From: Actinomadura sp. WMMA1423
Lineage (GTDB): Bacteria; Actinomycetota; Actinomycetes; Streptosporangiales; Streptosporangiaceae
Direction: 5' to 3'
DNA length: 64,000 nt
Assembly (NCBI RefSeq): GCF_006547145.1
Contig: NZ_CP041244.1
Location: 6,572,001-6,636,000 of the forward strand
Part shown: positions 8,910-47,280 of the stretch, in pieces
Numbering within the stretch: position 1 is the first letter of the stretch
How the letters are laid out: every line of letters starts with the position of its first letter
Position numbers and translations under genes: made by a program
Notes under the pieces: generated by a model
The model's input: only the letters and a program-made list of their open reading frames with translations
Told to the model about the DNA's origin: nothing
Database searches by the model: none

Positions 8910-9279
8910 GGGGGTGACCGGCTTCGACTTCGGTCGTTCGAGCCAGGGGAAGCGGGTCGAGGGTTGCTGTCGTGACCTCGTAAATCCTGTGACAGCAAAC
9001 CAATAACTGCCAACAAGAAGCAGTCCGAGTTCGCCCTCGCCGCCTGAGCGAGGAGCGAACTCTGTCAGCCCGGGCGCGTCTCCGTCCCGGGGTCTGGCAT
9101 CGTAAGGAGACTCCACCTGCCAGTTCGGTCGCGGGACCGGTAGGGACAACAAACAGCGGCTGAGCCCGTCGGCGACACGCCTGCGTGAGCGCCGGGGCTG
9201 AGAAAACGTCAAGCAGGCTGCACCCGGAGAAGCCCTGACCCATCACCGAAGGACGCGGGTTCGATTCCCGCCACCTCCA
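8910..9279 (+). ncRNA. ssrA: Transfer-messenger RNA (tmRNA)
   Basis: Mature RNA of about 370 nt. The 5' end GGGGGTG pairs with CACCTCC (9272-9278) to make the acceptor stem, followed by discriminator A9279; CCA is not encoded. The T-arm GCGGG-TTCGATT-CCCGC lies just before it. The tag reading frame runs from GCC 9009 to TGA 9045 and encodes ANKKQSEFALAA, with the usual ALAA degradation signal. The last 32 nt are the integration target of the element to the right and the gene is restored intact at attL. Confidence 0.95.
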
Positions 9280-9281
9280 CG
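9248..9281. other. attL core (34-bp direct repeat, ssrA 3' end)
   Basis: Identical over 34 bp to 47247-47280 and differing on both sides immediately beyond. The core spans the T-arm and acceptor stem of tmRNA, a classic tyrosine-recombinase target. The integrase gene lies directly inside this end. Confidence 0.93.
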
Positions 9282-9286
9282 GCAAG

Positions 9287-9325
9287 AGAAGCCGCTGATC
9301 AGACGAGTTCTGGTCGGCGGCTTCT
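9287..9325 (+). terminator. Element-supplied terminator for ssrA
   Basis: 16-bp arms (9287-9302 and 9310-9325, with G-U pairs) end in a TTCTTGT tail 6 bases inside the element. It replaces the original terminator of ssrA, which was displaced to 47282-47449. Confidence 0.75.
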
Positions 9326-9331
9326 TGTATG

Positions 9332-9350
9332 TGCGCCCACTTTACGCCCA
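9332..9350. other. Candidate integrase arm-type site (left)
   Basis: TGCGCCCACTTTACGCCCA matches 16 of 19 positions of 47111-47129 in the same orientation. Each copy itself contains a near direct repeat of the GCGCCC/ACGCCC type. Position just inside both att cores fits arm-type integrase binding sites. Confidence 0.4.
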
Positions 9351-9352
9351 CG

Positions 9353-10564
9353 TTAGGAGCCTCTCCTGCCGAGCGCCTTGGCCGCCTCGGCGGACGCCAC
9401 GCTACGCCCCATGTAGACGTCCTGGGTCATCGATGGCTTGGCGTGTCCGAGGTGGTCGGCGATCGCGCGAGCGCTCAGGCCGGCGTCGTCCAGCCGGGTC
9501 GCGACGGTCTTCCGGAACGTGTGCGAGGTGACCCACCCGAACCGCTCGGCGTCCACGCGCCCGAGCACCTCCTTGATGTCCCGGTTGCCGTTGGACGGGT
9601 TACGCACCCCGCCGAACAGCCCCGGGAACAGTAGGCCCACGTCCTCAGCCGGGCGCTGGACGGTCCGGCCATCCTCGGCAAGGACCGTGACCTGCCGGTC
9701 GCCGTACGGCCACGTCATCGCCATGCGGCGGCGGCACAGCTCCACCACGTGGACGGGCAGGGCGATCACGCGCCAGCCCGCCTCGGTCTTCGGGCGGAGC
9801 TGCAGCACCGTGCCGAGGCCCTTCAGGCGCGCGGCGGTCGCACACACCTCCAGCACGCCGGCCTCCAGGTCGACCACCTTGGCGCGCACGCCGAGCGCCT
9901 CGCCGATCCGCATGCCGGTGCCGTCGAGGAACTCCACCAAGTCGACGACGTCCAGCTCCCGCGCGCCCTCGTCCGCGGCGACCTTCGTCAGCATCTCCGT
10001 CTCGTCCTCGACCGTCAGCGCCCGCGGCCGCGCCTTGCGGCCGGTCGAGATCTTCGCGACATCGCGGACCGGGTTCGCGTCGAGGGCGCCGTGCCTGACG
10101 ACCATCCCGAGCAGCAGGGAGAGCACGGACTTGGCCGTGCGCGCCGCGCTCGGGCCGTGGTTCGTGCGCACAGCCTTCACGAACGCGTCGCACCGCGGCA
10201 CGTCGATCTCGCGCACGAGCAGGCCGCCCAACGCCTTCAGGATGCGGTCGAGCGCACGCTCGTAGATCTCCCGCGTCTGCGGGGTCAGCGTCTCGGACTC
10301 GGCGATCTCGGCCTGCCACAGCTTCGCCGCGTCGCGCAGCCGGGTCTCCGCCGTGATCTCGCCGCCGGCAGGCGGGCCGACGCGGTCGCGGATGGCTTCC
10401 TTCAGCCGGCGCTCGGCCGCGGCCTGGGTGGTGCCGTACCGGGTGATCTCGCGGACCTCGCCGTCGTGGTCGCGATAGCTCGCGCGGGCCCTGATCCGGC
10501 GCGGCCCGAGCTTCTGGAAGCGGACCTTCCCGGCCGTGCCTACGGGAAGAGGGGGACGTCCCAC
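9353..10564 (-). CDS. int: Tyrosine-recombinase integrase
   Basis: 403-residue site-specific recombinase that joins attP to the ssrA attB site. N-terminal arm-binding region, SAM-like core-binding domain (about 75-165) and catalytic domain with Arg219 (GMRIGEAL), Lys259, His348-x-x-Arg351 (SHTFR), His374 (HLGH) and the nucleophile Tyr384 (QDVY). Start GTG 10564 is preceded by GGAGAG and lies 2 nt after the repressor stop, so the two genes probably form one transcript. The gene ends 72 bp from attL. Confidence 0.96.
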   Translation of the reverse strand: MGRPPLPVGTAGKVRFQKLGPRRIRARASYRDHDGEVREITRYGTTQAAAERRLKEAIRDRVGPPAGGEITAETRLRDAAKLWQAEIAESETLTPQTREIYERALDRILKALGGLLVREIDVPRCDAFVKAVRTNHGPSAARTAKSVLSLLLGMVVRHGALDANPVRDVAKISTGRKARPRALTVEDETEMLTKVAADEGARELDVVDLVEFLDGTGMRIGEALGVRAKVVDLEAGVLEVCATAARLKGLGTVLQLRPKTEAGWRVIALPVHVVELCRRRMAMTWPYGDRQVTVLAEDGRTVQRPAEDVGLLFPGLFGGVRNPSNGNRDIKEVLGRVDAERFGWVTSHTFRKTVATRLDDAGLSARAIADHLGHAKPSMTQDVYMGRSVASAEAAKALGRRGS

Positions 10565-10566
10565 AA

Positions 10567-11448
10567 CTACTCTCCGCGCTCGTCATAAAGATGCGGATTT
10601 TCATCGAACTCATAAATCATTTGCTCGACTGCCTCTTCGGTCTCATCGAGGTGTTTGGCGATATCGGCGGGGGCCATACTCTGCTCGTACAAGGCTCGCA
10701 CGCGACGGACGAGCTGCTGACGTGCGCGCAGTGCATCATCCGCCGGACCTGTTCTATCTTCGAGAGTTACTGATCCATCTTCGTTCTTGCGCGCTAGCGA
10801 GACGTACTTCCTGAGCGCGGCATGCCTGGATGCGTACGGACCAGTCTTGAGAGCGTGCCCATGTCTCTCGCCTGCTGTGCCACGAGGCCGTAGCGTCAGA
10901 TAGTAGTCCTTGCCTTCCCTGGTCAAGGTGAAAGCGCCCTTCTCCACGGGGAAGCAAGGTGATGTGTCCCCACCCTTCGCGCGCTGATCGAGGTGGTGCT
11001 CCGCCACTCTACTGAGATAGTTAGTCATCCACTCAAGGGCGTGCCATATTTCGTTGCGCGCGTCCCGGACATCCTCCGGGAGATCCGGTTGCATGAGATC
11101 TTGCATGCTGCCGTATTTCTTGATCAGCTCCGCGAATTGTTGACCATATCCCTCTGCGGCCTTTGTTGAGGCCAGCCATTGCCGTGCCGTCTCGGCGGCC
11201 TCGAAAAGGAGGTTGTCTGGTGGCGACACCATCTCTTCGATGGTCGTGTTGAACACGCGCGCAATCGCCGCCGCCTCATCCAGGCGGATTGGGCGCTGGC
11301 CCTTTTCAAGGCGCGTGATGCCGGACGGGTCGAGTTTGATGGCGTAGCTGGCCAGCTCGTTAGCTAGCTCTCGCTGACTCCAGCCCCGCTTGATGCGTGC
11401 GTCGCGCACCCAGGCACCCAGGCGACGCTCCGCACTGACCTCGCTCAC
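10567..11448 (-). CDS. XRE-family repressor (probable lysogeny repressor)
   Basis: About 293 residues. The N-terminal helix-turn-helix (AWVRDARIKRGWSQRELANELASY...GITRLEKGQRPI) is followed by a helical region and a C-terminal part of unknown fold. GTG 11448 is chosen; GTG 11457 is equally possible, and the open frame further upstream is in the control region. It is divergent from the early genes and immediately precedes the integrase, the usual place of a phage repressor. Its base composition is clearly lower in GC than its neighbours (for example 10590-10800), suggesting separate acquisition. Confidence 0.8.
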   Translation of the reverse strand: MSEVSAERRLGAWVRDARIKRGWSQRELANELASYAIKLDPSGITRLEKGQRPIRLDEAAAIARVFNTTIEEMVSPPDNLLFEAAETARQWLASTKAAEGYGQQFAELIKKYGSMQDLMQPDLPEDVRDARNEIWHALEWMTNYLSRVAEHHLDQRAKGGDTSPCFPVEKGAFTLTREGKDYYLTLRPRGTAGERHGHALKTGPYASRHAALRKYVSLARKNEDGSVTLEDRTGPADDALRARQQLVRRVRALYEQSMAPADIAKHLDETEEAVEQMIYEFDENPHLYDERGE

Positions 11449-11651
11449 ACACTCCACCCCACATCTGCCAAGCGCTGCACACGGCGCAACGGTAATGCGG
11501 GGTGCGCATTGACGCAAGGGGGTGGCGTGTGCTGTGCTGTGTGACGCGCAGCGCCGTTGCGTCGCCAGCAGTACCTTCCGGGGGCCCGGCGAGGGCCGAA
11601 CCGCCAAGTACAGACCTCGCCGGGCTATCCCCACCTACCAGCGGAGATGTC
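11449..11651. promoter_or_regulatory. Divergent control region between repressor and early genes
   Basis: About 200 nt between the divergent repressor and excisionase-like genes. TTGACG near 11510 could be a minus-35 for the rightward promoter. GACGCAA (about 11512) and TTGCGTC (about 11557) form a spaced inverted repeat, and GCGCAAC occurs near 11482. These are operator candidates for the repressor; none is proven. Confidence 0.35.
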
Positions 11652-12610: not shown

Positions 12611-13450
12611 GTGGCCATCGAGCGCGTCCGCCGCGTCGGGACCTACGCCCCACTGGCCGCCAACTACTTCATGGACGACGCCATCGCCGAGGCCGGCGAG
12701 GCGGCCGAGCTGCTGTTCATCCGCGGGCTGGCTTTCTGCGCCTCGCGACCCGAGCAGGACGGCTACCTGAGCCGGACCCAGCTCGTGCGGTTCGTGGGCG
12801 TTGGGATGAGCGATGCCGTGGAGCGTGCCCGACGGCTCGTCGACGTCGAACTCTGGGAGGCCGTGGACGACGGCTATCAGGTGCGTAGCTGGCTGAAGTG
12901 GAACCGCAGCGCCGACGAGATCGGCCGCTACCGAGCCAAGGACCGCGAGCGGAAGCGCAAGGCGACGGAGGGCGTCTCGGAGGGCGCTGCGGATTCCGAC
13001 ACCACTTCCGCGCGGAATCCGAGCGGAGTCCGCGCGGAGGGTGTCGCGGAATCCAAAACGGCCTCCGACACACAGATGCACTACACATCAGATGCAGTAC
13101 AGGAAGTACCTCCATCGAGTACCTCGATGGAGACCTGCATGGAGCACTCGACCTCCACATCGAAGCGGCCGACGCCCGGCAGCGATGACGACCCGCAGTG
13201 GTGCCGCTTCTGGGACGCCTACCCCCGCAAGGACGGCAAGAAGGTCGCGCGGACCAGGTGGGCGACTGCGGTCAAGAAGACCGACCCCGAAGTGATCATC
13301 ACCGGCGCCGAGCGTTACCGCGACCGGATGGCCCGTGAGGGCACGCCACGCCAGAAGATCAAGATGCCGGAGGGCTGGCTGAACGGGGAGCGTTGGGAAG
13401 ACGAGTCCGGCCCGCACCTGCGCGCCGTCGGCGGATGGTTGGACAACTGA
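12611..13450 (+). CDS. Phage replication organiser protein
   Basis: 279 residues from GTG 12611. The N-terminal part (about 1-120) resembles a winged-helix origin-binding domain (ANYFMDDAI...LSRTQLVRFVGVGMSDAVERARRLVDVELWE). A low-complexity Ser/Thr linker (about 125-190) joins it to a C-terminal domain with the motif WCRFWDAYPRKDGKKVARTRW, common in replication proteins of actinophages and phages of Firmicutes (DnaD/primosome-like). It overlaps the primase-helicase start (TGATG) and so is presumed to load it. Confidence 0.7.
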   Translation: MAIERVRRVGTYAPLAANYFMDDAIAEAGEAAELLFIRGLAFCASRPEQDGYLSRTQLVRFVGVGMSDAVERARRLVDVELWEAVDDGYQVRSWLKWNRSADEIGRYRAKDRERKRKATEGVSEGAADSDTTSARNPSGVRAEGVAESKTASDTQMHYTSDAVQEVPPSSTSMETCMEHSTSTSKRPTPGSDDDPQWCRFWDAYPRKDGKKVARTRWATAVKKTDPEVIITGAERYRDRMAREGTPRQKIKMPEGWLNGERWEDESGPHLRAVGGWLDN

Positions 13451-15030
13451 TGGACGTCCTCCGCGAACTCGTCCTCCCCAAGCTGGAAGGTGTTCGCCAG
13501 TCCGGCGGTTCGTTCTCGGCCCGCTGCCCCGCCCACGACGACCGCAACCCGTCCCTGTCGGTCTCGCCCGGCCATACCCAGCCGGTCGTACTGAAGTGCC
13601 AGGCCGGATGCGAGACCGTGGACATCCTCGCCGCGATCGGGCTCACCGAGGCCGACATCTGCACGCCACGCGACGATCAGCGGCGCGAGGAGTGGACACC
13701 GCACGGGCCCGCCATCGCCGTCTACGACTATGTGGACGAGAACGGCGTCCTGCTGTTCCAGGTCATGCGGACTCTGGGCAAGCAGTTCCCATGCCGCGTC
13801 CCCGACCCGACCGCCAAGCGCGGATACCGCTGGAGCCTCGGCGACACCCGCCGCGTCCTCTACCGGCTGCCCGCGGTGATCGGGGCCTTGCGCGACGGCA
13901 AGCCGGTGTGGATCTGCGAGGGCGAGAAGGACGTCCACGCCCTGGAGGCCCGCGGCGTCGTCGCCACCTGCAACCCGGGCGGGACCGGCCAGGGCTGGCG
14001 CGCCGAATACGGCGAACCTCTCCGGGACGCCGAGGTCACCATCGTTGCCGACGCGGACAAGCCCGGCCAGGCGCACGCCCGGCAGGTTGCCGCCATGCTC
14101 GACGGCATCGCAGCCCGCATCCGCATCGTCGAGGCAGCCGCAGGGAAGGACGCCGCCGACCACCTCGCCGCCGGCAAGACGATCGAGGAGTTCGTCGAGA
14201 CCTGGACCAGCGACGAGCCCGCCAGGGTCGACCTCGCCGTGGACCTGTGGGAGTTCATCGGCCAGTCCGACCCTCCGTACGAGTGGGTCATACCCGGCCT
14301 GCTTGAGCGCGGCGACCGCTTGATCCTCACTGGCTTCGAGGGCCTCGGCAAATCCATGCTGACCCGGCAGCTCGCCGTCTGCGCGGCAGCGGGCATCCAC
14401 CCGTTCGCCTGGGGCGAGACCTACGAGCCGCGGCGCGTCCTGATGATCGACTGCGAGAACTCCGAGCGCCAGGGCCGCCGCCGGTTCCGCCCGCTCGCCG
14501 CCGCCTCCATCAAGACCCGGCGCCGCGTCCCCGACGGCGGGCTCCGGCTCATCCACCGGCCCGAGGGGATCGACCTCACCCGCGAGAACGACGCCGCGTG
14601 GTTCATGGAGCGCGTCACGGCACACCGCCCCGACCTGCTCATCGTGGGCCCGTTCTACCGGCTCCACATGGGCGACATGAACGACGAGCGCGTCGCCCGC
14701 AAGGTCGTCGGCATCCTCGACGCCGCCCGCACCAAGGCCGACTGCGCCCTGGTCACCGAGGCCCACGCCGGGCACGGCGAGGCAGGCAAGAACCGCTCTG
14801 TCCGCCCGCTCGGCTCCTCGCTGCTACTGCGCTGGCCGGAGTTCGGGTTCGGCATCGCGCCCGACCCCGGCAAAGAGGTCCGACCTGGCGAACCGTACCG
14901 CGACGTCGAGGTCCGCCCCTGGCGCGGCGCCCGCGACGAACGCAACTGGCCCACACACCTGACCTGGGGCGACCCCGAGGGATGGCCCTGGCAGATCGCA
15001 CCCGAAACGATCGGAGGAAAGGGATTTTGA
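13450..15030 (+). CDS. Primase-helicase (CHC2-type zinc finger, Toprim, RecA-like ATPase)
   Basis: 526 residues from ATG 13450. The N-terminal zinc finger uses C26-x2-H29 and C50-x3-C54; the Toprim-like region follows (WICEGEKDVHAL and TIVADADKPG), and the C-terminal AAA/RepA-like ATPase has Walker A G295FEGLGKS302, Walker B in LMIDCENS and a downstream LLIVGP strand. The layout matches primase-helicases of actinophages and conjugative elements. It should synthesise primers and unwind DNA for replication of the excised circle. Confidence 0.88.
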   Translation: MDVLRELVLPKLEGVRQSGGSFSARCPAHDDRNPSLSVSPGHTQPVVLKCQAGCETVDILAAIGLTEADICTPRDDQRREEWTPHGPAIAVYDYVDENGVLLFQVMRTLGKQFPCRVPDPTAKRGYRWSLGDTRRVLYRLPAVIGALRDGKPVWICEGEKDVHALEARGVVATCNPGGTGQGWRAEYGEPLRDAEVTIVADADKPGQAHARQVAAMLDGIAARIRIVEAAAGKDAADHLAAGKTIEEFVETWTSDEPARVDLAVDLWEFIGQSDPPYEWVIPGLLERGDRLILTGFEGLGKSMLTRQLAVCAAAGIHPFAWGETYEPRRVLMIDCENSERQGRRRFRPLAAASIKTRRRVPDGGLRLIHRPEGIDLTRENDAAWFMERVTAHRPDLLIVGPFYRLHMGDMNDERVARKVVGILDAARTKADCALVTEAHAGHGEAGKNRSVRPLGSSLLLRWPEFGFGIAPDPGKEVRPGEPYRDVEVRPWRGARDERNWPTHLTWGDPEGWPWQIAPETIGGKGF

Positions 15031-15456: not shown

Positions 15457-15918
15457 ATGGCCGGAGAAACCCAGATCACGATTGTCGGGAACCTCGTCGA
15501 GGACCCGAACCTGCGCTTCACCCCGAGCGGCCAGGCGGTCGCGTCCTTCCGCCTCGCCTCCACGCCCCGGTTCTTCGACAAGGCCGCGAACGGGTGGAAG
15601 GACGGGGAGGCGATGTTCCTGACCTGCAACGTCTGGCGGCAGGCCGCCGAGCACGTCGCCGAGTCCCTCACCCGTGGCATGCGGGTCATCGTGCAGGGAT
15701 GCCTCAAGCAGCGCTCCTACGAGACCCGCGAGGGCGAGAAGCGCACCGTCTTCGAGGTCGAGGTCGACGAGATCGGCCCCTCCCTCCGCAACGCGACCGC
15801 GAAGGTCACCAAGGCCCAGCGGTCCGGCGGCGCCCCGGCCGGCGGCGGGTTCGGCCAGAGCGCGCCCGCCGGCCAGCAGCAGGGCCGCCAGGGCTTCAGC
15901 GACGACCCGCCGTTCTGA
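15457..15918 (+). CDS. ssb: Single-stranded DNA-binding protein
   Basis: 153 residues: an OB-fold ([20 protein letters not shown]...[21 protein letters not shown]), a Gly/Gln-rich linker and the acidic tip DDPPF that recruits replication proteins in the SSB family. Coats ssDNA during phage replication. Start ATG 15457 follows GAAGGAGA. Confidence 0.95.
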
Positions 15919-18307: not shown

Positions 18308-18558
18308 TGGGGCCGGTGGAGGAGGCGGCGCGGGCCGAGGTGGCGTCGATGGGCAAGGAGGCCGAGGCGAGCACGCTTGGGGCGTCGGCGATCGACCTGG
18401 CGCGGCGGCAGGACAAGGCGACCCTCCCTCAGCAGGCGGCGCAGGTGGCGAAGGAGCTGCGGGAGACGCTGCGCCGGTTGGCTGATCTGTGGCCGCCGGC
18501 GCCGGCGAAGGACGGGCTGGACGAGCTGCGGTCGCGGCGTGAGGAGCGCGGCGCGTGA
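18307..18558 (+). CDS. Probable terminase small subunit
   Basis: About 83 residues from ATG 18307 (GTG 18304 is adjacent). Mostly helical, Ala/Arg/Glu-rich (LPQQAAQVAKELRETLRRLADLW...LDELRSRREERG), matching the short helical small subunits placed directly before large terminases in actinophages. The stop overlaps the large-subunit start (GTGA). The assignment rests mainly on position. Confidence 0.6.
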   Translation: MGPVEEAARAEVASMGKEAEASTLGASAIDLARRQDKATLPQQAAQVAKELRETLRRLADLWPPAPAKDGLDELRSRREERGA

Positions 18559-36903: not shown

Positions 36904-37704
36904 GTGAGCTACACCGCCGCCGCCGCGATCAAGGCGGCCGAGGGCGAACTCGGGACCCGCGAGACCGGCACGAACAACACCCCCTACAACCACTGGCTCG
37001 GCGCGATCCCCGGCTACCCGCATGGCGGCTACGGCTACGCCTGGTGCTGCTCGTTTCAGGGCTGGGTGGCCGACCAGGCGGAGGGCGAGGCCAACCGCGA
37101 CTACCCGCGCACGGCCGGGTGTGAGGTCGCCGTCGGGTGGTTCAAGGCGCACGAGCGGTGGAGCTCCACCCCGCACGTCGGGGACTGGGTGTTCTACGGC
37201 CCGCGCGGCGGCACGCACGTCGAGCTCGTCGTCGCCGTCTCCTCGAGTTCCATCACGACGATCGGCGGCAACACCTCCGGTTCCCTCGAGGGCCGCTACT
37301 TCAACGGCGACGGCGTGTACCGCAAGACCGTCGCGCGCAACTCTGACCGCATCTACGGCTACGGCCGCCCCGACTACGAGGAGGACGACATGCCCAGCGA
37401 GAAGGCGCTCTGGCAGTGGGACGGGATCGAGGCGCCCGCCGGCCCGGACGGCAAGCCCCTCAACCCGAAGAACCCCACCTGGCGGCCGGACTCCTACCTG
37501 CGTGAGACCTACATGTGGGTGCGGCGCGTCCAGCGCGAGCAGGCCGCGACGCAGGCGACGGTCATCGAGCTGTCGAAGGCCGTCGCGCAGCTCGCCGCCG
37601 ACCGGGGTCAGCAGGTCGACCCGGACGCCCTGGTCCAGCGGATCACGTCCGCGATCGAGAACGTCACGGTTCGCCTCGACGTCGCCGACGAGTCGACCGC
37701 CTGA
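36904..37704 (+). CDS. Endolysin with CHAP domain
   Basis: 266 residues from GTG 36904 after AAGGAGAG. The N-terminal CHAP amidase/peptidase has Cys48 (YAWCCSF) and His105 (GGTHVELV); about residues 1-150. The C-terminal part has a helical region (YMWVRRVQREQAATQATVIELSKAVAQL) that probably binds or oligomerises. Cleaves host peptidoglycan at lysis; holin gene lies downstream. Confidence 0.9.
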   Translation: MSYTAAAAIKAAEGELGTRETGTNNTPYNHWLGAIPGYPHGGYGYAWCCSFQGWVADQAEGEANRDYPRTAGCEVAVGWFKAHERWSSTPHVGDWVFYGPRGGTHVELVVAVSSSSITTIGGNTSGSLEGRYFNGDGVYRKTVARNSDRIYGYGRPDYEEDDMPSEKALWQWDGIEAPAGPDGKPLNPKNPTWRPDSYLRETYMWVRRVQREQAATQATVIELSKAVAQLAADRGQQVDPDALVQRITSAIENVTVRLDVADESTA

Positions 37705-38250: not shown

Positions 38251-38481
38251 ATGTCCGCACCCGTGGAAGCCAAGGTCAAGGCGCAGAGCCTCGCGACGCT
38301 CGTCGCTGGCTTCGTCGTCGCGTGGATCGTGGTGGAGGTCCCGGCGCTGGCCGGGCTCGCCGACGTCCTCCAGGCGCTCATCATCGGCGGGATCGCGACG
38401 GCGGTCGGCGCGGTGACGGGGTGGCTGACCAAGCACACCCCGCGCGCCCCGGCGCAGGTGCCGCCCGCGCCGCGCCTCTGA
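38251..38481 (+). CDS. Holin-like protein
   Basis: 76 residues from ATG 38251 (AAGGAG upstream). Two hydrophobic helices (SLATLVAGFVVAWIVVEV; ALIIGGIATAVGAVTGWL) and a short Pro-rich tail match small actinophage holins. Last gene of the rightward late operon and followed by a terminator. Confidence 0.78.
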   Translation: MSAPVEAKVKAQSLATLVAGFVVAWIVVEVPALAGLADVLQALIIGGIATAVGAVTGWLTKHTPRAPAQVPPAPRL

Positions 38482-40101: not shown

Positions 40102-41331
40102 CTAGACGATCAGCCGCAGCGACCGCGCCAGGTCGCGGACCTCATCGGCTACCGTCGCCGGCGGAGACACCAGCAGCTCGGCCACCATCGACCGCGCGAA
40201 CAACGAGAACGCGAACGTGTCGGCCGAGATCCCCTCCGCCTTACGCATCAGGTGCACGGCGGCGACGTCATCGCCCTCACGGTGGTGAGCGCGCGCGACC
40301 TCGACCAGGTACCGCGACTGGCGGGTACGGCTCGGGATCGCGGCCGGGTCGATCCGGTCCGCCGCACGCAACGCCAGACCCGGCTTCTGCAGGTCGAGAT
40401 GCATGGTCACCGCGTAGTGCTCGACCATCCCCCGGCCGATCATCAGCCACGGGTGCGCGTACCCGGCCGGCAGGCCCCGGGCGGCACGCTCGGCCTCATC
40501 GTGGTGACGCCACGCATCACCCTCCCGGCCGACCTTGGCATGCGACAACGCGATGGCCAGGTGCATCAGGCTGAACAGCGCCAACTGCTCGGCGCTCTTG
40601 CCGGGGCGGAGCATATCGGCGACGTCGCGGGCCAGCTCCACACGCGCGTCGGCCGCCTCGCCCGCGTCGCGCCACACGTGGTTGAGGTACCAGGCGGCGC
40701 CCGCGATGGCCGCCGGGTCGTCGGCGTCAGCCGCGGCGTGCATCGCCCGGTCACTGGTCAGGTAGACCAGCTCCGGCGCGGGCTGGAACGTCGTGTAGAG
40801 CTGCGCGAGGTGGTAGACCTGCGCGAGCTGCCGGGACGCCTGGCGGCGCTCGGCCCCGTCCAGGGCGCGGGCGGAGGCGCGGGCATCGGCGATCAGCCCC
40901 GGCAGTCGGCCAGCGACCGCGCCGCGCTCGTGCTTCTTGGTGTGCCACAGCCGCCACGCCTGCTCGACCCGCCCGGTGAGCACGTCCGCCGGCATCGGGT
41001 CGTCCCCGGCCGTGACGGGGTAGGCGGCCAGGCTGTTGCGGATGACGTCCAACGACTCGTGCGCGTGCTTGGTGTAGGCGGCGCGCGACAGCCGCTGATC
41101 GCCCACCAGGTCCGCGAGGTCGTCCAGGCCGAGGACGTCGGCCAAGCGGATCAGCATCGGCAACCGGGGGAGGCCGAGCCGTCCGGTTTCCAGGCCCTTC
41201 ACCCATTCGGCGGATCGCCCGACCAGCCCGCCGAGCACGGCGCGGCTCCTGCCGGTCCGCTCGCGGTAATACGCCAACCGCTGGGCAAAGGGGGCATCTG
41301 GAGCAAGTCCTGCGCTGTTAGTGTTGGGCAT
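40102..41331 (-). CDS. XRE-HTH regulator with TPR-like C-terminal domain
   Basis: 409 residues from ATG 41331 (CAGGAGGTG upstream). HTH at about 15-75 (FAQRLAYYRERTGRSRAVLGGLVGRSAEWVKGLETGRLGLP), followed by about 300 residues of helical pairs typical of TPR peptide-sensing regulators. It lies directly downstream of the 62-bp repeat array, whose dyads are its probable operators. A counterpart of the same architecture (49883) lies beside the duplicated A-B pair outside the element. Confidence 0.82.
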   Translation of the reverse strand: MPNTNSAGLAPDAPFAQRLAYYRERTGRSRAVLGGLVGRSAEWVKGLETGRLGLPRLPMLIRLADVLGLDDLADLVGDQRLSRAAYTKHAHESLDVIRNSLAAYPVTAGDDPMPADVLTGRVEQAWRLWHTKKHERGAVAGRLPGLIADARASARALDGAERRQASRQLAQVYHLAQLYTTFQPAPELVYLTSDRAMHAAADADDPAAIAGAAWYLNHVWRDAGEAADARVELARDVADMLRPGKSAEQLALFSLMHLAIALSHAKVGREGDAWRHHDEAERAARGLPAGYAHPWLMIGRGMVEHYAVTMHLDLQKPGLALRAADRIDPAAIPSRTRQSRYLVEVARAHHREGDDVAAVHLMRKAEGISADTFAFSLFARSMVAELLVSPPATVADEVRDLARSLRLIV

Positions 41332-41422
41332 AGCCCCGCACCTCCTGAGACGTCGACACTCTCAGCGTAGGTCGCGGGGCCCTTCGCGTGACAGGGATTC
41401 CGGACGTGCAAGAGCCCCCCGC

Positions 41423-41622
41423 GCGCACGGGCCGGACCTCCCGCCGCTATCACTTCGGTGATCGCCGAAGTGATGCCTACGCCCGCGCACGGGCCGGACC
41501 CGCCATCACTGTGGTGGTTGCCAAAGTGATGCGTCTCGCGCAGATCTGCGCACGACCCGGACACCGCCATCACTTCCCCACTTGGCGAAGTGATGCGCCC
41601 GCCCCCGCGCGCACGGGCCGGG
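41423..41622. repeat. 62-bp tandem array with 26-bp dyads and TraB-site-like octamers
   Basis: GCGCAC begins the units at 41423, 41485, 41548 and 41609 (steps 62, 63, 61). Each start is followed by GGGCCGGA, GGGCCGGA, GACCCGGA or GGGCCGGG. The first three units contain a 26-bp dyad ATCACTT...AAGTGAT (41449-41474, 41505-41530, 41569-41594); in the first the arms are 10 bp and perfect. It is noncoding and lies between the HTH-TPR gene and the transfer genes. Confidence 0.85.
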
Positions 41623-41640
41623 CACTCGACGAGCAGCAGC

Positions 41641-41672: not shown

Positions 41673-41690
41673 TCGGCGTGGTGGCCGCGG

Positions 41691-42071
41691 CTACCGTCGT
41701 CGGCTGCTCGACGAGGTGCGGCGCCCGGAGCTGCTGCTCGGCGTGCGCCGGGTCCTGGCGGTGCGGCGCCGCCGCTTCTGCTGGCGGGCCATGGTCTTGC
41801 GGTTGCGCTCGGCGTAGGTGCCGGCGAGGACGGCCGCGCCGGTCAGTGCAGCGATCAGCACGACGCAGACGGTCGAGATCAGGGTGAACCCGAACTCCAC
41901 CAGGATCGCCGTGGCGCTGAGGCCGGCGAACCCGGCGCCGGCCCACGCGGCGCGCGAGCGTGCCCAGTGCGCGGAGCGGGTGTGCGAGCGGACGCGGGTG
42001 CCGTCCTTGCGGACGTAGGAGGTGACCCGCGGCTTCTGCTGGGTGCGGCCGGTGGGCTTTCTCGGAGGCAT
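41691..42071 (-). CDS. Basic two-TM membrane protein (spread-type)
   Basis: 126 residues. A basic N-terminal part (PPRKPTGRTQQKPRVTSYVRKDGTRVRSHTRS), two hydrophobic helices (about 45-85) and a highly basic Arg/Ser tail. The N-terminal pattern TSYVRKDGTRVRSHTRS is common in small proteins of actinomycete conjugative elements, where spread (Spd) proteins are membrane proteins needed for movement through the mycelium. Assignment to Spd is inference from context. Confidence 0.65.
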   Translation of the reverse strand: MPPRKPTGRTQQKPRVTSYVRKDGTRVRSHTRSAHWARSRAAWAGAGFAGLSATAILVEFGFTLISTVCVVLIAALTGAAVLAGTYAERNRKTMARQQKRRRRTARTRRTPSSSSGRRTSSSSRRR

Positions 42072-42257
42072 GATCTTCCCTTCGGTGGCGGGTTAGGTCC
42101 GCCGGATCGGGTTAGTTCCGTAACCGCCGCCCTGTGCGGCGGTCACTCGTGCTCTGGCCTGCGAAGAGTTAGGTGGGTTAGGTGGGTTGGGGCAGTGAGG
42201 TGCGGGCCCCGCACAGGCCCCCAGGGCGCGTCTCCGGGGGTGTGCGGGGGAGGTCAC
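42072..42257. other. Gap with hairpin and telomere-like G-rich repeat
   Basis: ACCGCCGC/GCGGCGGT (42123-42143) is a hairpin placed as terminator of the leftward FtsK-like gene. TTAGGTGGG occurs twice in tandem at 42169-42186 and GGGTTAG also at 42104 and 42093, giving a G-rich plus strand that could form a two-tetrad quadruplex. No gene is seen. Confidence 0.45.
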
Positions 42258-44372
42258 TCACTGCTCGTCGAGGTCGGCGGTCGACCGGTCCGCGATGGCC
42301 TTGCGGAGTTGCCCGGGGTCGAGTCGGCGGACGTTGCCGGCGTTGGTGGTGGGCACGCCCTCGTCCTCCAGGCGCTCCCTCAGAGCCGTGCCGTTCAGCG
42401 TCCGATAGGGCGCCCAGTGCGGGGCGAGGTCGCGCAGCAGCGCGGGCACGTCGGCGAGCCGGACGCGCTCGGCGCCGAGCACCTCGTCGAGGTCGGCCAG
42501 CAGGTCGCGCTCCTCGATCGCCGGCCGCGCCCGATCGGTGCCGGGCACCTGGCGGTTCCTGCGCCGAAGCTCGGTCAGGGCCCGGTCGACGAGCGGCGTC
42601 ACCTGGTCGTGGTCCTTGGCGACGCTGAGGAAGTAGGCCTGGACCATCTCCGAGCGTTCCCCGGAGAAGCCCTTGACCAGCGCGGTTCCCTTGTCGGTGC
42701 CAGGGATGAGGTCGGTGGCGCGGTGCCCGCCCCGGTACGCGCCCTGCCCGAGCAGCGCGTCGTTGGCGACGTGGTCACCGACCGCGAACGCGATGCCGTT
42801 GGAGCAGTTGCGGGTCACGTCCCGCGGCATGCTCGTCGACGTCGGCGCCTGCGTGGAGACGATGAAGTGGATGCCGCGCTTGCGGCCCAGCTTGACGATC
42901 TCGACGACCAGCCATGAGATCTCGTCGCCGTGCTCGCGGTGGTTCAGCGCGACGTGCGCCTCCTCCAGCAGGCACACCAGCGGGTGAAGCCCCGGCACCT
43001 TGTCGGCCACGGTCCGCGTCACCTCGGGTTCCTGGCACTGCACCAGCAACTGCCCGCGGTCCTGGACCTCGGCGTGCAGCTCGCGCAGGTCGACGAGAAT
43101 CTCCTCGATCCGCTCGTCTTCGGCGCCCATCACGTACCGCGCGCACCTCGGACGGAAGCTCTCGAAGTCGTAGTTGGAGTCCGGGACCCAGATGCGCAGC
43201 TCGGCCGTGGGGTCCAGGGCGGCGCCGGCCATGATGACCCGCGCCGCGCTGGACTTCCCCTGCCCGGGGATGCCGCCGACGATGGTGTTCCGGCCGATCA
43301 GCGGCGCGACGGTCGGGTCACCGCGCAGCGTCCGCCCGAACGGGACGCCCTTGAACACGTCGACCAGGCCCTCGTCGAGGAGCGGGTACGGGCCCGCGCC
43401 CTCCTCAAGGGCGCCCTTGTCGGCGACCCACAGATCCAGGACCCCGGCCTCACCGCCGGTCGAGGGCCACACTTCCTTTGCGAGCCGGTAGAGACCGGAC
43501 GCCAGGTCGGCGCGGCGCCGCGCGATGCGGTCGGCGGTGACGCCGGCGGGCAGCCTCAACACCGCATGCGTCCCCCGGCCGTCGCGGCGGGCGGTGGTGA
43601 TGTACTGGAGCGGCAGGCCGTCCTTGAGGTAGGCGGTGATCTGCGGGATGCGCAGCGCCTCCAGCGCCCTCGCAATCGTCGTCTCGTCGATCTGAACGTC
43701 CATGTCGACGTCACCGGCCGTCCCGACCCAGCGGGCTTCGTCGCGGTTCTCGTGACGCAGGCCGATGCCCCACAGCGCCAGCAGCACCACCAGCGGCGCC
43801 ACCAGCGCGACGGGGAGCCACAGCAGCGTCACCACCACGACGGTGAACTCGGTGACTTCGGCGACCGCGACGAACGGCGTCACGACCTGCGTCACGTCCT
43901 GGCGCGCGACGGCGAGCAGCACACCGACCGCGCCGAGCCCACCGACCGTGACCAGGCCGGCCTTCGGCGCGGCCGTGATGACCCGGCCGGGGATCTCGAT
44001 CAGGTCCATGCGGCGCTGGTGCCGGTCGCGTCGCCACTCCGCCGCCTTCTCCTCCCAATCGAGGGCGGCGGCGTGGTCGCCCATGGCTTCGGCGGCGCGG
44101 AGCATCCGCTCATACCGGCCGCCGGTCCGCCGCTCCCACGCTCGGCCGGCGACCACGACGACGCCGGTCACGACGTAGCCGCCGTGCTCGGCGAGCAGCC
44201 GCGCGGCCGGGCTGTCCACGACGGAGTAGACGACGTCCAGGACACCGGCCGGGCCCTTGCCGTCCTCCTCGTCGAGGTCGACGATCTCCCCTTCGAGAGC
44301 CTCCTCCTCGGCGTCGTCCTTCCCCAAAGACACGCTTTCGGGGACGACGTACAGGCGGGGTGTCCGCGTCAC
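42258..44372 (-). CDS. FtsK/SpoIIIE-type DNA translocase (TraB-like)
   Basis: 704 residues from GTG 44372 (GTGA overlap with the DUF2637 gene). N-terminal membrane part with helices at about 66-77, 140-157 and 178-204, then the motor domain: Walker A GGIPGQGKSS (366-375) and Walker B LVCLLEEAH (465-473), sensor STQAPTSTSMP. The C-terminal end (about 640-700) resembles the winged-helix gamma domain that reads DNA octamers in TraB and FtsK. Actinomycete TraB pumps double-stranded DNA between hyphae. A cell-division FtsK is excluded by size and context. Confidence 0.85.
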   Translation of the reverse strand: MTRTPRLYVVPESVSLGKDDAEEEALEGEIVDLDEEDGKGPAGVLDVVYSVVDSPAARLLAEHGGYVVTGVVVVAGRAWERRTGGRYERMLRAAEAMGDHAAALDWEEKAAEWRRDRHQRRMDLIEIPGRVITAAPKAGLVTVGGLGAVGVLLAVARQDVTQVVTPFVAVAEVTEFTVVVVTLLWLPVALVAPLVVLLALWGIGLRHENRDEARWVGTAGDVDMDVQIDETTIARALEALRIPQITAYLKDGLPLQYITTARRDGRGTHAVLRLPAGVTADRIARRRADLASGLYRLAKEVWPSTGGEAGVLDLWVADKGALEEGAGPYPLLDEGLVDVFKGVPFGRTLRGDPTVAPLIGRNTIVGGIPGQGKSSAARVIMAGAALDPTAELRIWVPDSNYDFESFRPRCARYVMGAEDERIEEILVDLRELHAEVQDRGQLLVQCQEPEVTRTVADKVPGLHPLVCLLEEAHVALNHREHGDEISWLVVEIVKLGRKRGIHFIVSTQAPTSTSMPRDVTRNCSNGIAFAVGDHVANDALLGQGAYRGGHRATDLIPGTDKGTALVKGFSGERSEMVQAYFLSVAKDHDQVTPLVDRALTELRRRNRQVPGTDRARPAIEERDLLADLDEVLGAERVRLADVPALLRDLAPHWAPYRTLNGTALRERLEDEGVPTTNAGNVRRLDPGQLRKAIADRSTADLDEQ

Positions 44373-45193
44373 GGAGCCCCCTCCACGGCGAGAGCCTCAC
44401 GGACGAGCCGGGCCTTCGGGTGCCCGATCCGGAGCTCGCGCCGGAGCTGGCGGACCGAGGGGAGAGCACCGGTCGCGAGCACCTCGGCATACCGGTCCCG
44501 GGCGGTCGCGACCACCGGGACGAGGTCCGGCTCGACGGGGGGTTCCTCGCACTGCTCCGGCTCGTCGTCCGGCGCCTCCGGGAGCGCGGGCGGGAGCGTC
44601 TCGCGAGAGGGCTCGATCTCGTCCCACAGCGCGTACCCGTCCGCCGCCTGACCAGCGGACCCGAGGTCCGGGAGCGGCCACCAGGACGGCGACGCAACGA
44701 CCGTTGCGGCTCCACCGTCCGGCGCCGCAAGCTCGGCGTCGAGACCGGTGGTCGCGACAGGGGCTCGCGTGACGAGCCGGTGAAGGGTGCGCAGCAGGAC
44801 GAGGAGGCCGAGCATCGAAGCGACCGGAGGCACCGCCGCGGTGAGCTGGTCGCTCAGCTCGTGGTCGACGTGCCCGACGTTGAACGCCAGCGAGACACCC
44901 CATCCGGTGGTCGCGATCGCCCCGGGCAGGAACAGATCCGCCCACGACAGGGCGCTCTTGCGGAGGCGGTGGCCCTCCAGCGTGAGGGCGAACAGGCCGA
45001 GCTCACCGACGCCGATGAACACGTCGACCATGGCCGGGAACGACATGGCCTTCCAGTCGTTGAGGCCGTGCTCGATCGCCCAGCCGTACAGGCCCGCCCA
45101 GGACTGGGCGAACCCGACGCCGGTGGCGGCCAGGACGCCGGCGGCCATGAGCGCGACGGACGCCAGGTGCGCGATGCGGGTGGTGCGGTTCAT
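44369..45193 (-). CDS. DUF2637-type membrane protein
   Basis: 274 residues from ATG 45193. Four hydrophobic helices in the first 140 residues (VALMAAGVLAATGVGFAQSW; VDVFIGVGELGLFALTL; GAIATTGWGVSLAFNVGHV; SMLGLLVLLRTL), then a Pro/Glu-rich linker and a C-terminal helix-turn-helix-like end (LPSVRQLRRELRIGHPKARLVREAL). This family accompanies FtsK/TraB genes on actinomycete plasmids and ICEs. Overlaps both neighbours. Confidence 0.8.
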   Translation of the reverse strand: MNRTTRIAHLASVALMAAGVLAATGVGFAQSWAGLYGWAIEHGLNDWKAMSFPAMVDVFIGVGELGLFALTLEGHRLRKSALSWADLFLPGAIATTGWGVSLAFNVGHVDHELSDQLTAAVPPVASMLGLLVLLRTLHRLVTRAPVATTGLDAELAAPDGGAATVVASPSWWPLPDLGSAGQAADGYALWDEIEPSRETLPPALPEAPDDEPEQCEEPPVEPDLVPVVATARDRYAEVLATGALPSVRQLRRELRIGHPKARLVREALAVEGAP

Positions 45194-45657
45194 CGCCCCG
45201 TCACCTCACTCGGCAGGCCGTCCACGGTCCAGCGCAGGTCCTCGATGGTCCGGGCCGCGAGCGCGGCGGCGAGCCGGTCGGAGAGTTCGCCGACGTCCAG
45301 GCGGCCGGCGGCGAAGTGGCTGTGGAGCGCCTCCACGAACACGTCGCGCTCGGCGTCGCCGATCCGGGCGCCCTTCCGGCACGACAGCAGGACACTGGAC
45401 ACCGTCTCCGTCTGTAACACGGGCACGGCCCGGCGCTGGCGCTCGGCGGTCAGGGCGCGCATCCGGTCCTGGTAGATCCGCGCCGACCACAGGCACGCGA
45501 ACCACACCGTCCCGCCCGTCGTCCCGAGCGCCCACAGCGCCGACACGATCGGGTGCGCGATGAAGAAGGCGAACAACCCGGTGCCGAGCAGGACGGCGGC
45601 GGCCAGGAGCAGCACGCCGAACAGCACGTCCCCCGGCTCACGGCCGCGGCGCCTCAC
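45190..45657 (-). CDS. Membrane protein with C-terminal DUF1707-like domain
   Basis: 155 residues from GTG 45657, overlapping the upstream stop. Two helices (VLFGVLLLAAAVLLGTGLFAFF; IVSALWALGTTGGTVWFAC) are followed by IGDAERDVFVEALHSHFAAG, a DUF1707-type pattern which normally stands at the N-terminus of such proteins. Probably part of the transfer complex; function unknown. Confidence 0.65.
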   Translation of the reverse strand: MRRRGREPGDVLFGVLLLAAAVLLGTGLFAFFIAHPIVSALWALGTTGGTVWFACLWSARIYQDRMRALTAERQRRAVPVLQTETVSSVLLSCRKGARIGDAERDVFVEALHSHFAAGRLDVGELSDRLAAALAARTIEDLRWTVDGLPSEVTGR

Positions 45658-45923
45658 CGGGACACCTTCCCCGCGCGCAGGATGATCCCGGTGATGACCG
45701 CGCACGTCTCGGGCTCCCACCCGGCCAGCCACTCCAGGATGCGCCGGTCGTAGGCGCCGAGCTCGACGCCGGCGGCCTCGCACGCCGCGGTGAGCTGGTC
45801 GAGGGACAGGCGCCCCATGGTGCCGGGCGCGGTGCGGGCGTGCGCGTAGACGTGGGAGACGGTGTCGGCGGCCTGCTGGTCGGTCTCGTACGGGCCGACG
45901 TCGGCCGGTAGGTTCTCCTGCAT
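45654..45923 (-). CDS. Small hypothetical protein of the transfer operon
   Basis: 89 residues from ATG 45923 with the strong site AAGGAGGT. Helical and soluble (LSLDQLTAACEAAGVELGAYDRRILEWLAGW). Its stop overlaps the next gene. Seen in similar operons of actinomycete elements; no function known. Confidence 0.7.
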   Translation of the reverse strand: MQENLPADVGPYETDQQAADTVSHVYAHARTAPGTMGRLSLDQLTAACEAAGVELGAYDRRILEWLAGWEPETCAVITGIILRAGKVSR

Positions 45924-45957: not shown

Positions 45958-45988
45958 GCCCGCCCGGCGGTAGGGTCGCCGGGCGGGT
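45958..45988 (-). terminator. Terminator after the DUF6907-like gene
   Basis: 12-bp arms GCCCGCCCGGCG/CGCCGGGCGGGT around a 7-nt loop, between the stop at 46002 and the start at 45923. Confidence 0.75.
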
Positions 45989-46001
45989 CCCGCTGGTGTC
46001 G

Positions 46002-46676
46002 TTACTCGACGGGGCGGTTGCGGCGGGCGGCGCTGGTCAGGTCCAGCAGCGTCCGCGTGAGGCCCTCGGCCTCGGCGATGCTCATCACCCGGTCGCTGTC
46101 GATCTGGATGGACAGGTCGGGCTCCAGGCCGGGGACCATCTGCATGTGCACCGGCCCCGGCCTGCCCTCCACGCTCAGCAGGTGCACCTCCTCGTGGTGC
46201 TCCGCGCACCACGCCGGGTGCCCGTCGACCGTCTTCACGCCCTGCCCGGCCCGTGCGATGGCGACCAGCTCCAGGAGGCGGGCCGCGAACTCCTCGGCCT
46301 CGTCCGGGGTGAACTGGATGCCGGTCGGCTTGTCGTCGCGGCCCAGCTCGATGCGCGGGCCGATCTCGCGGTAGTGCTGGCGCAGGAACATGCGCGCCTC
46401 GTCGGGGGGATCGCCCTCGCGGGACTCGCACTCGTCCGCCGCGGTGAGGATCACCGAGCGGCCCGCACCGGTGTGCAGGCGGTCGTCGTAGTGGTCGTGC
46501 TCGACGTGCAACTCCGGGGCGTCGCACCAGGCCGGGCAGCCGTTGGGCAGCCAGGTCGGCCGCGGACCGTTCGTCTCGGCGGCGCGGACCGTGTCCGGCT
46601 CGCCTCCGGGCCAGCTGCCGGCGATGCTCGCCTCGACCGCCTCCTGCGGCCTGTCGGCGTCAGTAGTGTTGCCCAT
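46002..46676 (-). CDS. DUF6907-type protein with two CPAWC/HPAWC modules
   Basis: 224 residues from ATG 46676 (GAGGAGGTCC upstream). Contains CPAWCDAPELHVEHDHYDD (about 47-65) and HPAWCAEHHEEVHLL (about 153-167), the Cys/His motif of the DUF6907 family, probably zinc-binding. The family is abundant on actinomycete mobile elements. First gene of the leftward transfer operon. Confidence 0.75.
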   Translation of the reverse strand: MGNTTDADRPQEAVEASIAGSWPGGEPDTVRAAETNGPRPTWLPNGCPAWCDAPELHVEHDHYDDRLHTGAGRSVILTAADECESREGDPPDEARMFLRQHYREIGPRIELGRDDKPTGIQFTPDEAEEFAARLLELVAIARAGQGVKTVDGHPAWCAEHHEEVHLLSVEGRPGPVHMQMVPGLEPDLSIQIDSDRVMSIAEAEGLTRTLLDLTSAARRNRPVE

Positions 46677-46766
46677 GGGTCAGGACCTCCTCGTCCTGGT
46701 CAAGGGCCTCGGTTTGCGGTGGTGACGCTTGCCGGGGCCCGCCGTATTGGCGGGGGATCGAACTTG

Positions 46767-46832
46767 GTAGCTACAGAGTAAACAGAAAGCTGGTAGCTAC
46801 ACAAGTCCTGTGCAAGGATTCTCCGTAGCTAC
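46767..46832. promoter_or_regulatory. Three GTAGCTAC palindromes upstream of the RHH gene
   Basis: GTAGCTAC at 46767-46774, 46793-46800 and 46825-46832, each followed by A. Centre distances are 26 and 32 bp. The array lies between the divergent DUF6907-like and RHH genes and probably serves as an operator. Confidence 0.65.
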
Positions 46833-46855
46833 ACGACGTGCGGAGGAGTGCCCCC

Positions 46856-47098
46856 ATGGCCGAGAAGTCCCGCAGGACCCCGACCAGACCCATCCGGGTG
46901 CCCATCCCGCTGTGGGACGCCTACGGCCGCGTGTGCGAGAGACTCGGCACCGACCGCACGCCGGACCTCCTCGACCACATGCGCGCACGGATCCGCGAGT
47001 ACGGGAACGCGGACGAGTTGGCCATGCTGGATGAGGCGGAGCAAGAGCTTGCCGAGCGGCGGGCCCGCAAGGGCGGTCGGCCGCCGAAGGGCGCATGA
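46856..47098 (+). CDS. Ribbon-helix-helix-like DNA-binding protein
   Basis: 80 residues from ATG 46856 with GGAGGAG upstream. The N-terminal strand TRPIRVPIPLWDAYGRVCERLG and the following helices fit the ribbon-helix-helix fold; the C-terminus is a charged helix ending in the AT-hook-like KGGRPPKG. Likely binds the GTAGCTAC palindromes immediately upstream and controls the divergent promoters. It is the only rightward gene in the right arm. Confidence 0.65.
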   Translation: MAEKSRRTPTRPIRVPIPLWDAYGRVCERLGTDRTPDLLDHMRARIREYGNADELAMLDEAEQELAERRARKGGRPPKGA

Positions 47099-47246
47099 GG
47101 GCGCCACGTTTGCGCCCGTTTTACGCCCGGAATATGACCGCCAACAGCCAACGGCAGTCAACGGATACACACACTGAGAAGCGCCGCTTACGCTGGTAAA
47201 ACCACGATCGCCAACGACAGCCCAAGATGATCGTCCGGGCTGTCTG
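47099..47246. other. Right arm of the att region
   Basis: No gene. TGCGCCCGTTTTACGCCCG (47111-47129) matches the site at 9332-9350 in the same orientation. CCAAC-containing repeats follow (47141-47163 and 47211). These are candidate integrase and excisionase binding sites. Confidence 0.4.
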
Positions 47247-47280
47247 GAAGGACGCGGGTTCGATTCCCGCCACCTCCACG
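47247..47280. other. attR core (34-bp repeat, tmRNA 3' fragment)
   Basis: Identical to 9248-9281. It restores only the T-arm and acceptor 3' strand and is not a functional ssrA. The bases to the right are the original downstream chromosome. Confidence 0.93.

Follow-up and report, generated by a model that had tools for sequence, protein, structure and literature searches.

Plasmid-phages of Streptomyces have been described which conjugate as episomes and form phage particles (PMC4170104, with reference to the paper on pFP4), and the transfer of pZL12 requires its major tra gene together with adjacent genes (PMC3583192). Actinomycete integrative and conjugative elements (AICEs) are defined by an integrase, a replication protein and a transfer protein (Int, Rep and Tra), and the 2011 survey of these elements excluded chromosome fragments with two modules or fewer, which it regarded as probable remnants, prophages or islands of another kind (PMC3218068). 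PhiNon1 from Nonomuraea gerenzanensis (Streptosporangiales) is a plasmid-phage that occurs as a circle or integrated at a tRNA gene (PMC5431353). The element considered here lies in the window, a stretch of 64,000 nucleotides (C1:6572001-6636000) of the 9.53-Mb chromosome of Actinomadura sp. WMMA1423, and is probably a temperate siphovirus, integrated in ssrA, which carries a module for the transfer of double-stranded DNA (dsDNA) of the AICE or mycelial-plasmid type. A first, sequence-only reading of the window had warned that Streptomyces phage-plasmids with tra genes are known. This is correct: besides those described in PMC4170104, the PLSDB records pPaSha2 and pFP3 combine phage genes with FtsK and DUF2637. 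Since conjugating, particle-forming plasmid-phages already exist, the element is less of a novelty than had been hoped; searches of the open-access literature, outside which most subscription papers lie, yielded no account of AICE-type pump-array cassettes in chromosomal siphoviruses.

The element is framed by an exact 34-bp direct repeat (100% identity, no extension at either flank), the left copy of which is the 3′ end of ssrA, the tmRNA gene (8910-9282). The starts of the two copies are 37,999 bp apart, which gives a prophage of 38.0 kb (Table 1). That the repeats enclose a head-tail-lysis gene set, as first read, is borne out by Pfam and phrog matches: integrase, att repeats, terminase, portal, capsid, tape measure and lysin, the components of a temperate siphovirus prophage, are found within one element. 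A Pfam tally over 31 further proteins, which counts families without assigning them to individual proteins, yields one each of S78 prohead protease, Phage_capsid, head-tail connector, Phage_tube_2, CHAP and NlpC.

Like AICEs, the element has a tyrosine integrase with an att site in the tmRNA gene, and a Tra protein of the FtsK/SpoIIIE type. The replication protein sets it apart: Pfam scans of 49 of the 51 predicted proteins (all but those of a 34-aa and a 69-aa gene) revealed no RepSA, RepAM or Prim-Pol family, and a primase-helicase and a single-strand DNA-binding protein (SSB) stand in the place of an AICE Rep, as had been proposed. Having Int and Tra modules without a Rep of the AICE type, the element would land among the fragments that the 2011 survey excluded. 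The pZL12 and pFP4 plasmids, and the pFP3 record (NC_023067: terminase, portal, capsid, tape measure, DUF2637 and FtsK), resemble it in joining phage structural genes to an FtsK-type tra gene. However, pZL12 and pFP4 are described as episomes and pFP3 is annotated with ParA and DnaB, whereas the element considered here sits in ssrA, with no ParA or ParB among the same 49 proteins; in this integrated state it shows neither the stable episomal replication nor the partition genes of this class. PhiNon1 is likewise a phage of a Streptosporangiales species that integrates at an RNA gene, but it measures 59 kb, and FtsK does not occur in the main text that describes it (PMC5431353), which sets it apart as far as that description goes.

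The putative transfer module is part of a block at 38.8-46.7 kb, past the lysis genes, on the opposite strand and convergent to the structural genes. The block contains small genes, a helix-turn-helix (HTH) regulator, a protein with two transmembrane (TM) spans, the FtsK-like gene, and genes for a DUF2637, a DUF1707, an 89-aa and a DUF6907 protein. The three DUF proteins score above their family cut-offs and, with the FtsK/TraB-like translocase, stand as first annotated; the "spread-type" label attached to the membrane proteins stays a guess from position and membrane spans, and so does "holin" for the small protein after the lysin.

The translocase scores 23.5 bits with PF01580, slightly below the cut-off of 24.0, and matches the FtsK family phrog_1358 at 9e-25. 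Hydropathy places TM segments at residues 138-156 and 178-196. Its AlphaFold2 model (mean predicted local distance difference test score 86) matches the FtsK motor (E 3.7e-15) and the conjugation coupling protein TcpA (2.3e-13), and its C-terminal domain, made of helices and a short hairpin, is read as a winged helix. A profile of 34 translocase relatives aligns in hhalign with TraB of pSVH1 over 398 columns (probability 99.9, E 8.5e-36); the motor columns are invariant across the 34 relatives and Walker A is intact. A third, weaker relative of the translocase (26%) is encoded elsewhere on the same chromosome (G000:C1:663571-664533).

A second prophage on the chromosome, sister B (C1:5206468-5245358), is framed by an exact 49-bp repeat containing part of a tRNA-Ile. 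Window positions 18199-38213 are perfectly identical to it over 20,015 bp (about C1:5.2146-5.2346 Mb, L114-L115), a tract that spans the structural module; for the genes starting between 18.3 and 38.0 kb, 0 synonymous and 2 non-synonymous differences are counted, and the virion genes are open. The identity points either to recombination or conversion in the very recent past or to a copy made in the assembly. Outside the tract the two elements are diverged relatives: DUF2637 is 89% identical, DUF1707 90%, the 89-aa protein 97% and DUF6907 57%, while the adjacent regulator, the integrase and the replication arm differ, sister B having a Prim-Pol (PF09250, 3.8e-38) and a DUF3987 protein. Nucleotide similarity stops at window position 44403, just ahead of the FtsK start, and the two FtsK proteins are only about 34% identical. 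Thus, both prophages hold the block at one place, with different pumps. Below, the window translocase and its relatives are called type A, and the sister translocase and its relatives type B.

Immediately 3′ of the translocase stop codon lies a repeat array that is specific to the translocase clade, and this observation is new here. The type A motif, CTAACYC/GRGTTAG, occurs in the 300 bp that follow the gene in 33 of 39 loci (23 of them with at least three copies), with 114 copies in all, a density of 9.84/kb against 0.035/kb in the rest of the same loci. The type B motif, GAAACCGG/CCGGTTTC (inside GAAACCGGTTTC), has 125 copies in 42/42 loci, at 9.92/kb in the 300 bp and 0.0115/kb elsewhere. 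Each motif keeps largely to its own type: the A motif occurs in 0/42 B loci, and the B motif in 4/39 A loci. The loci counted were 39 close and 34 of 36 more distant type A relatives (two with fewer than 150 bases downstream being omitted) and 42 of type B, with the window copy L095 excluded and the sister, L117, among the 42; the counts are not independent, several B loci appearing to be near duplicates and L039 and L106 being the same element. It tells against these enrichments that the motifs were defined after looking at these loci, many of which are related; the figures are therefore descriptive, and the held-out cases are the test. In held-out pCM32, four type A copies lie 3′ of FtsK and none elsewhere in the record, and four of five newly found prophages carry 3, 4, 2 and 3 copies.

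In the window, the four copies lie at 42090-42181 and none is found elsewhere in the element. Not one of 20,000 equal-length shuffles reaches three copies, against four in the 186 bp of the window array; in the whole genome, same-strand pairs of the motif within 30 bp occur at three places, two of which are in this array, and the reversed control pattern gives one match. Type A copies are mostly forward (99 versus 23 reverse), and their commonest spacings are 19 and 11 bp. Short repeats of any kind were only weakly in excess downstream of FtsK, upstream bins being equal or higher; it was the motif itself that carried the signal. Comparison by eye of the C-terminal domain with motif variants gave no clear rule.

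The plasmid pSVH1 serves as a positive control, with GACCCGG repeats that directly follow the 3′ end of traB; we take GACCCGGA to be its TraB recognition sequence (TRS). The window resembles pSVH1 in having a homologous translocase with repeats directly 3′ of the gene; it differs in the motor (about 31% identity) and the repeat sequence, and pSVH1 is a small plasmid without phage genes. The cis-acting loci of transfer (clt) of such plasmids vary and hold direct and/or inverted repeats beside tra, and TraB recognizes 8-bp repeats through its winged-helix domain (PMC3583192, PMC4170104). Repeated sites do adjoin the tra gene in the window, and the array and the predicted translocase fit a TraB-clt pair. 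The Streptomyces NBC_00562 record and a Nonomuraea gerenzanensis locus have neither motif 3′ of FtsK but other palindromes. Those of the AICE-like type B relatives L191 and L192, at the same 3′ spot, are GCTATCGATAGC and GCTAGCGCTAGC, which suggests that the array rule extends beyond types A and B.

The array could instead be a replication origin or an operator. In type A AICE-like loci it sits between the translocase gene and Prim-Pol, and direct and inverted repeats also mark origins, such as the iterons of pWTY27 (PMC3583192). But type A arrays are present both with and without a Prim-Pol nearby, and the window array stays with the translocase although no Prim-Pol was found in the element. 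In sister B, Prim-Pol is distant (about 27 kb on the map of the prophage, about 10 kb on an excised circle), yet the palindrome stays with the translocase. Since the motif type also tracks the translocase type, an origin or operator appears quite unlikely.

The combination of phage genes and translocase is found in other genomes. Relatives of TerL were sought at 1e-20 in 345 genomes of the order, of which 35, including its own, were positive. In five of the 34 others (G322, G039, G058, G212 and G018), TerL is followed on its contig, after 16-26 kb, by a translocase on the other strand; the window has the same orientation and a distance of 22 kb. No other arrangement was seen among the listed pairs up to 40 kb apart, and a rough estimate from genome sizes gives about half an event of chance co-location within 40 kb. 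In an earlier count, none of 29 TerL loci had a translocase nearby (0/29), but these stretches (2.5-4.5 kb) were too short to judge and the count over the 34 genomes was used instead. In Prauserella shujinwangii (G349), portal and capsid (511-514 kb) share a contig with the translocase and DUF2637 (528-531 kb); portal and capsid were searched in 38 records (23 genomes and 15 virus records), and among the genomes with a portal or capsid match, phage genes on the same contig as the translocase are established for this one.

The circular record pPaSha2 (CP052773, L190) from Pseudonocardia alni Shahu, 41.9 kb, has phage genes, FtsK and DUF2637 on the same plan as the window element. Its terminase (34%), portal (50% over 217 aa) and capsid (32%) match those of the window, and a holin gene is followed by FtsK and DUF2637 on the opposite strand; it also has an integrase. 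It differs in being deposited as a plasmid, in carrying Bet and in its FtsK, nearer to type B (41%) than to type A (31%). By gene content, pPaSha2 is a siphovirus with FtsK and DUF2637, although deposited as a plasmid. Its portal match is in two pieces, so the gene may be broken, and its name does not occur in the main text of the genetics paper on the strain (PMC8928166).

These cases bear on the view that two unrelated elements lie side by side, or that the assembly is chimeric. The mosaicism of the sisters, and the 20,015-bp identity as a possible assembly copy, would speak for it. However, a search for direct repeats of at least 20 bp framing 38.5-47.2 kb alone found none, and the same layout recurs in the sister, the five other genomes, Prauserella and pPaSha2. 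These facts already contradict the idea, which is very improbable, and rule out a separate insertion at 38.8-47.1 kb with att sites of its own, the event by which the sequence-only reading would have fallen. Because the sister and five prophages elsewhere have the translocase at the same place, the block belongs, on the evidence of gene order, to the phage as a standing part of its genome. The idea of one element with both modules holds, and related elements do keep both, as the five genomes, Prauserella and pPaSha2 illustrate.

The translocase is not of a purely phage family either, as its family is common to AICE-like loci and plasmids, which agrees with the AICE or plasmid character first noted. 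Types A and B match 35 and 52 plasmid records, respectively; at 1e-5, the FtsK of pFP3 has no BLASTP match to either type. Relatives of type A comprise 61 genome loci and 15 virus contigs (the window's own included), and those of type B, with the sister counted, 42 virus contigs. Among the 14 type A virus contigs other than the window's, five have a portal, and seven a portal or an HK97 capsid (the Prauserella element among them). For type B, a Phage_portal gene is present in 25 of the 41 contigs other than the sister, and a TerL homologue lies downstream of the translocase, on the same strand and within the available flank, in 19/42. FtsK_B is detected at E 1e-60 in 5/396 genomes across the phylum, its own counted. 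FtsK-like proteins exist in other phages (phrog_1358; structural matches in BFVD, at best 13-19% identical).

A tree of 48 of the 120 translocase rows, with Shimodaira-Hasegawa-like approximate likelihood-ratio (SH-aLRT) support only, puts phage-borne translocases at four places. The window is in a set of seven rows (96), of which four have detected phage genes and three are virus contigs without them. The other type A phage translocases fall in a three-row clade (100), next to a Nonomuraea locus in the case of L101 (91), and next to two Prim-Pol-bearing loci in that of the Prauserella element (84). By this tree, exchange between phages and AICE-like elements may have happened several times. 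A homologue of the Prim-Pol of sister B is found in the flank of 17/44 type A tree rows, window included (Pfam check on L034 only), and the layout with Prim-Pol beside the translocase is also annotated in pCM32.

We take pCM32 to be an AICE, partly from its genes. With the Streptomyces NBC_00562 record and the Nonomuraea gerenzanensis locus (L192), it shares the translocase superfamily of the window. In these AICE-like elements no virion genes were seen and Prim-Pol is present, whereas the window element lacks Prim-Pol and sister B has one. The Nonomuraea locus has genes like those for a translocase, Prim-Pol, xis and int, with neighbours recognized from sequence as gyrA and gyrB, and two copies, about 15 kb apart, of a stretch 84-85% identical to the att region of sister B. 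Sister B also adjoins gyrA- and gyrB-like genes. Since the repeats match and both elements are next to such genes, a phage of this type and an AICE-like element seem to share a kind of target site.

Several observations weigh against a working transfer module. The translocase is near TerL in only 5/34 genomes, although its profile matches somewhere in 23/34 (1e-15); the first count may miss cases because of split assemblies and because the number of candidates scored was capped. No FtsK is annotated in the phage records NBC_01259 and NBC_01335. The translocase reaches 30.9 bits (E 1e-7) with the equivalog of plasmid TraB, NF041214, far from its cut-off of 800 bits; despite this shortfall, homology to TraB is clear from the profile comparison. 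The type A motif is found in just 1/34 of the more distant type A relatives, the array of sister B is short (one GAAACCGGTTTC palindrome and imperfect copies), the fifth held-out prophage has another repeat, CCCTCTAC, in place of the type A motif, and pPaSha2 and pFP3 have neither motif 3′ of FtsK. Of the upstream proteins, DUF2637 is present in 15/40 on the phage side and in 0/23 type A genome loci, and neither SpdB2 of pSVH1 nor the upstream protein of pCM32 has a Pfam match; for these reasons, the partner proteins are an unproven Spd set. The dN/dS ratios relative to the sister are 0.58 for DUF1707, 0.70 for DUF6907 and 0.92 for the 39250 gene, which indicates weaker or no clear constraint.

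Finally, neither the translocases (1e-5 and 1e-2) nor DUF2637 have a match in 50,697 phage records. This absence is uninformative on the use of the translocase, because there are no close TerL matches there either: among the matches listed, from which the nearest phage records may be missing, the best TerL identities are 31-42% and none reaches 60%, and the capsid behaves likewise. For the same reason, the lineage being unsampled, absence from isolated phages was rejected as a sign that the element does not form plaques.

Part of this evidence would suit a module captured from AICEs that no longer moves DNA and is kept as cargo (for superinfection or defence) or by chance: its presence is patchy, the phage-side partner genes are unlike those of type A genome loci, and little constraint is seen on DUF6907 and the 39250 gene. 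On the other hand, Walker A is intact and the motor is invariant over 34 relatives, DUF2637 and the 89-aa gene have dN/dS values of 0.25 and 0.19, the array is kept with the translocase type, and phage-borne translocases occur at four places of the tree. A leftover module is therefore unlikely.

Transfer or spread of a double-stranded circle is the likeliest role of the translocase, given its TraB homology, the type-matched array, the membrane partners and a clade common to AICE-like elements. From this we infer a cycle in which the integrase would excise the element from ssrA as a circle, to be replicated by the phage-type proteins. By one route, the terminase, head, tail and lysis genes would package it in virions. 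By the other, the FtsK/TraB-like protein would assemble as a hexamer on the directional, clt/TRS-like array 3′ of its gene and, assisted by the DUF2637 and DUF1707 membrane proteins, would pump the circle, as double-stranded DNA, into an adjacent hypha or compartment, where it would re-integrate.

This pumping might connect different strains or occur only within one mycelium; conjugation between strains seems probable. The alternative is that the translocase acts only inside the lysogen, where it would move or resolve the element across cross-walls or secure its inheritance without mating, the array serving to orient the pump. FtsK-orienting polar sequences (KOPS) and SpoIIIE recognition sequences (SRS) orient FtsK and SpoIIIE in this manner. 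The translocase has the same fold as FtsK, the array is directional with preferred spacings and is accompanied by the DUF2637 and DUF1707 membrane proteins, and spread across septa is part of known plasmid biology (PMC4170104). Yet the same clade and array occur in AICE-like elements, in which the translocase is by family definition a conjugation protein, so that a role confined to the lysogen is possible but rather unlikely.

A wider picture can be drawn, tentatively and with somewhat less than even confidence: an integrative siphovirus lineage of mycelial actinomycetes leading a double life, as virions and as dsDNA circles pumped between hyphae, in which TraB-clt pairs have been repeatedly traded with AICEs and translocase and array swapped as a cassette between co-resident prophages. 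If so, a cassette swap would change transfer specificity and avoid cross-mobilization. The line between prophages and AICEs would be blurred, and prophages could move without particles, by a route that prophage surveys miss. The type-specific arrays give testable predictions of transfer sites for two large clades, in AICE-like elements and phages, and a strain whose two sister prophages share their virion genes but not their translocase offers a natural experiment on the role of the translocase.

The coordinates of the features are collected in Table 1.

Table 1. Features of the ssrA-integrated element (window coordinates)
Feature	Position	Strand	Basis
attL, 34-bp direct repeat, ssrA 3′ end	9248..9281	+	repeat comparison, tmRNA 8910-9282
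Tyrosine integrase	9353..10564	-	PF00589 1.6e-14, phrog_1 1.9e-49
HTH regulator, probable repressor (putative role)	10567..11634	-	PF01381 1e-9
CHC2/Toprim/AAA_25 primase-helicase, phage-type replication	13450..15030	+	PF13481 8.8e-29 and others
SSB	15457..15918	+	PF00436 1.7e-29
Terminase large subunit (TerL)	18555..20114	+	phrog_9 1.2e-58
Portal	20463..21659	+	PF04860 9.4e-49
Prohead protease	21659..22324	+	69% identity to annotated HK97 prohead protease of NZ_CP108470 (compared via the identical sister protein)
HK97-type major capsid protein	22977..24473	+	phrog_2263 5.5e-55
Tail tube protein	26167..27195	+	35% identity to annotated phage tail tube of NZ_CP108470
Tape measure protein	29094..32066	+	phrog_1272 1.5e-33
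Lysin	36904..37704	+	assigned by position
Small membrane protein, possibly holin-like	38251..38481	+	place, membrane spans
HTH/TPR-type regulator	40102..41238	-	phrog_5823 6.1e-81, PF13560
Second repeat array, 4 GCGCACGGSCCGG-like units alternating with 3 ATCACT-AGTGAT palindromes	41416..41625	.	
Small basic protein, two predicted TM spans	41691..42071	-	40% homologue in prophage G018
Candidate clt/TRS array, 4 CTAACYC copies in gene direction, directly 3′ of translocase gene	42090..42181	-	
FtsK/TraB-type dsDNA translocase (predicted)	42258..44372	-	TM helices, Walker A GIPGQGKS, C-terminal helical/winged domain
DUF2637 membrane protein	44369..45193	-	PF10935 9.4e-8; start/stop overlap with translocase
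DUF1707 membrane protein	45190..45627	-	PF08044 3.4e-16
89-aa protein	45654..45923	-	97% identity in sister
DUF6907 protein	46002..46676	-	PF21848 2.3e-10
attR, second 34-bp repeat copy	47247..47280	+	repeat comparison

The second array, between the translocase operon and the HTH regulator, has a period of about 62 bp. It was the first candidate for clt and was dropped: triplets of palindromes with the same arms arise somewhere in the 64 kb in 12/60 shuffles, a simple 8-mer cluster test was negative, and in the 185 loci searched the palindrome has no counterpart save copies of this element and a stray match in L142.

Immediately past attR, an 84-bp unit is repeated twice in tandem (window 47282-47449). 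Further out, a gene pair (48951-49657) resembles, as judged by eye, a pair inside the element (39250-39950), and the first genes of both pairs are 76-77% identical to the copy of sister B; the resemblance is possibly a trace of an older neighbouring element or of recombination.

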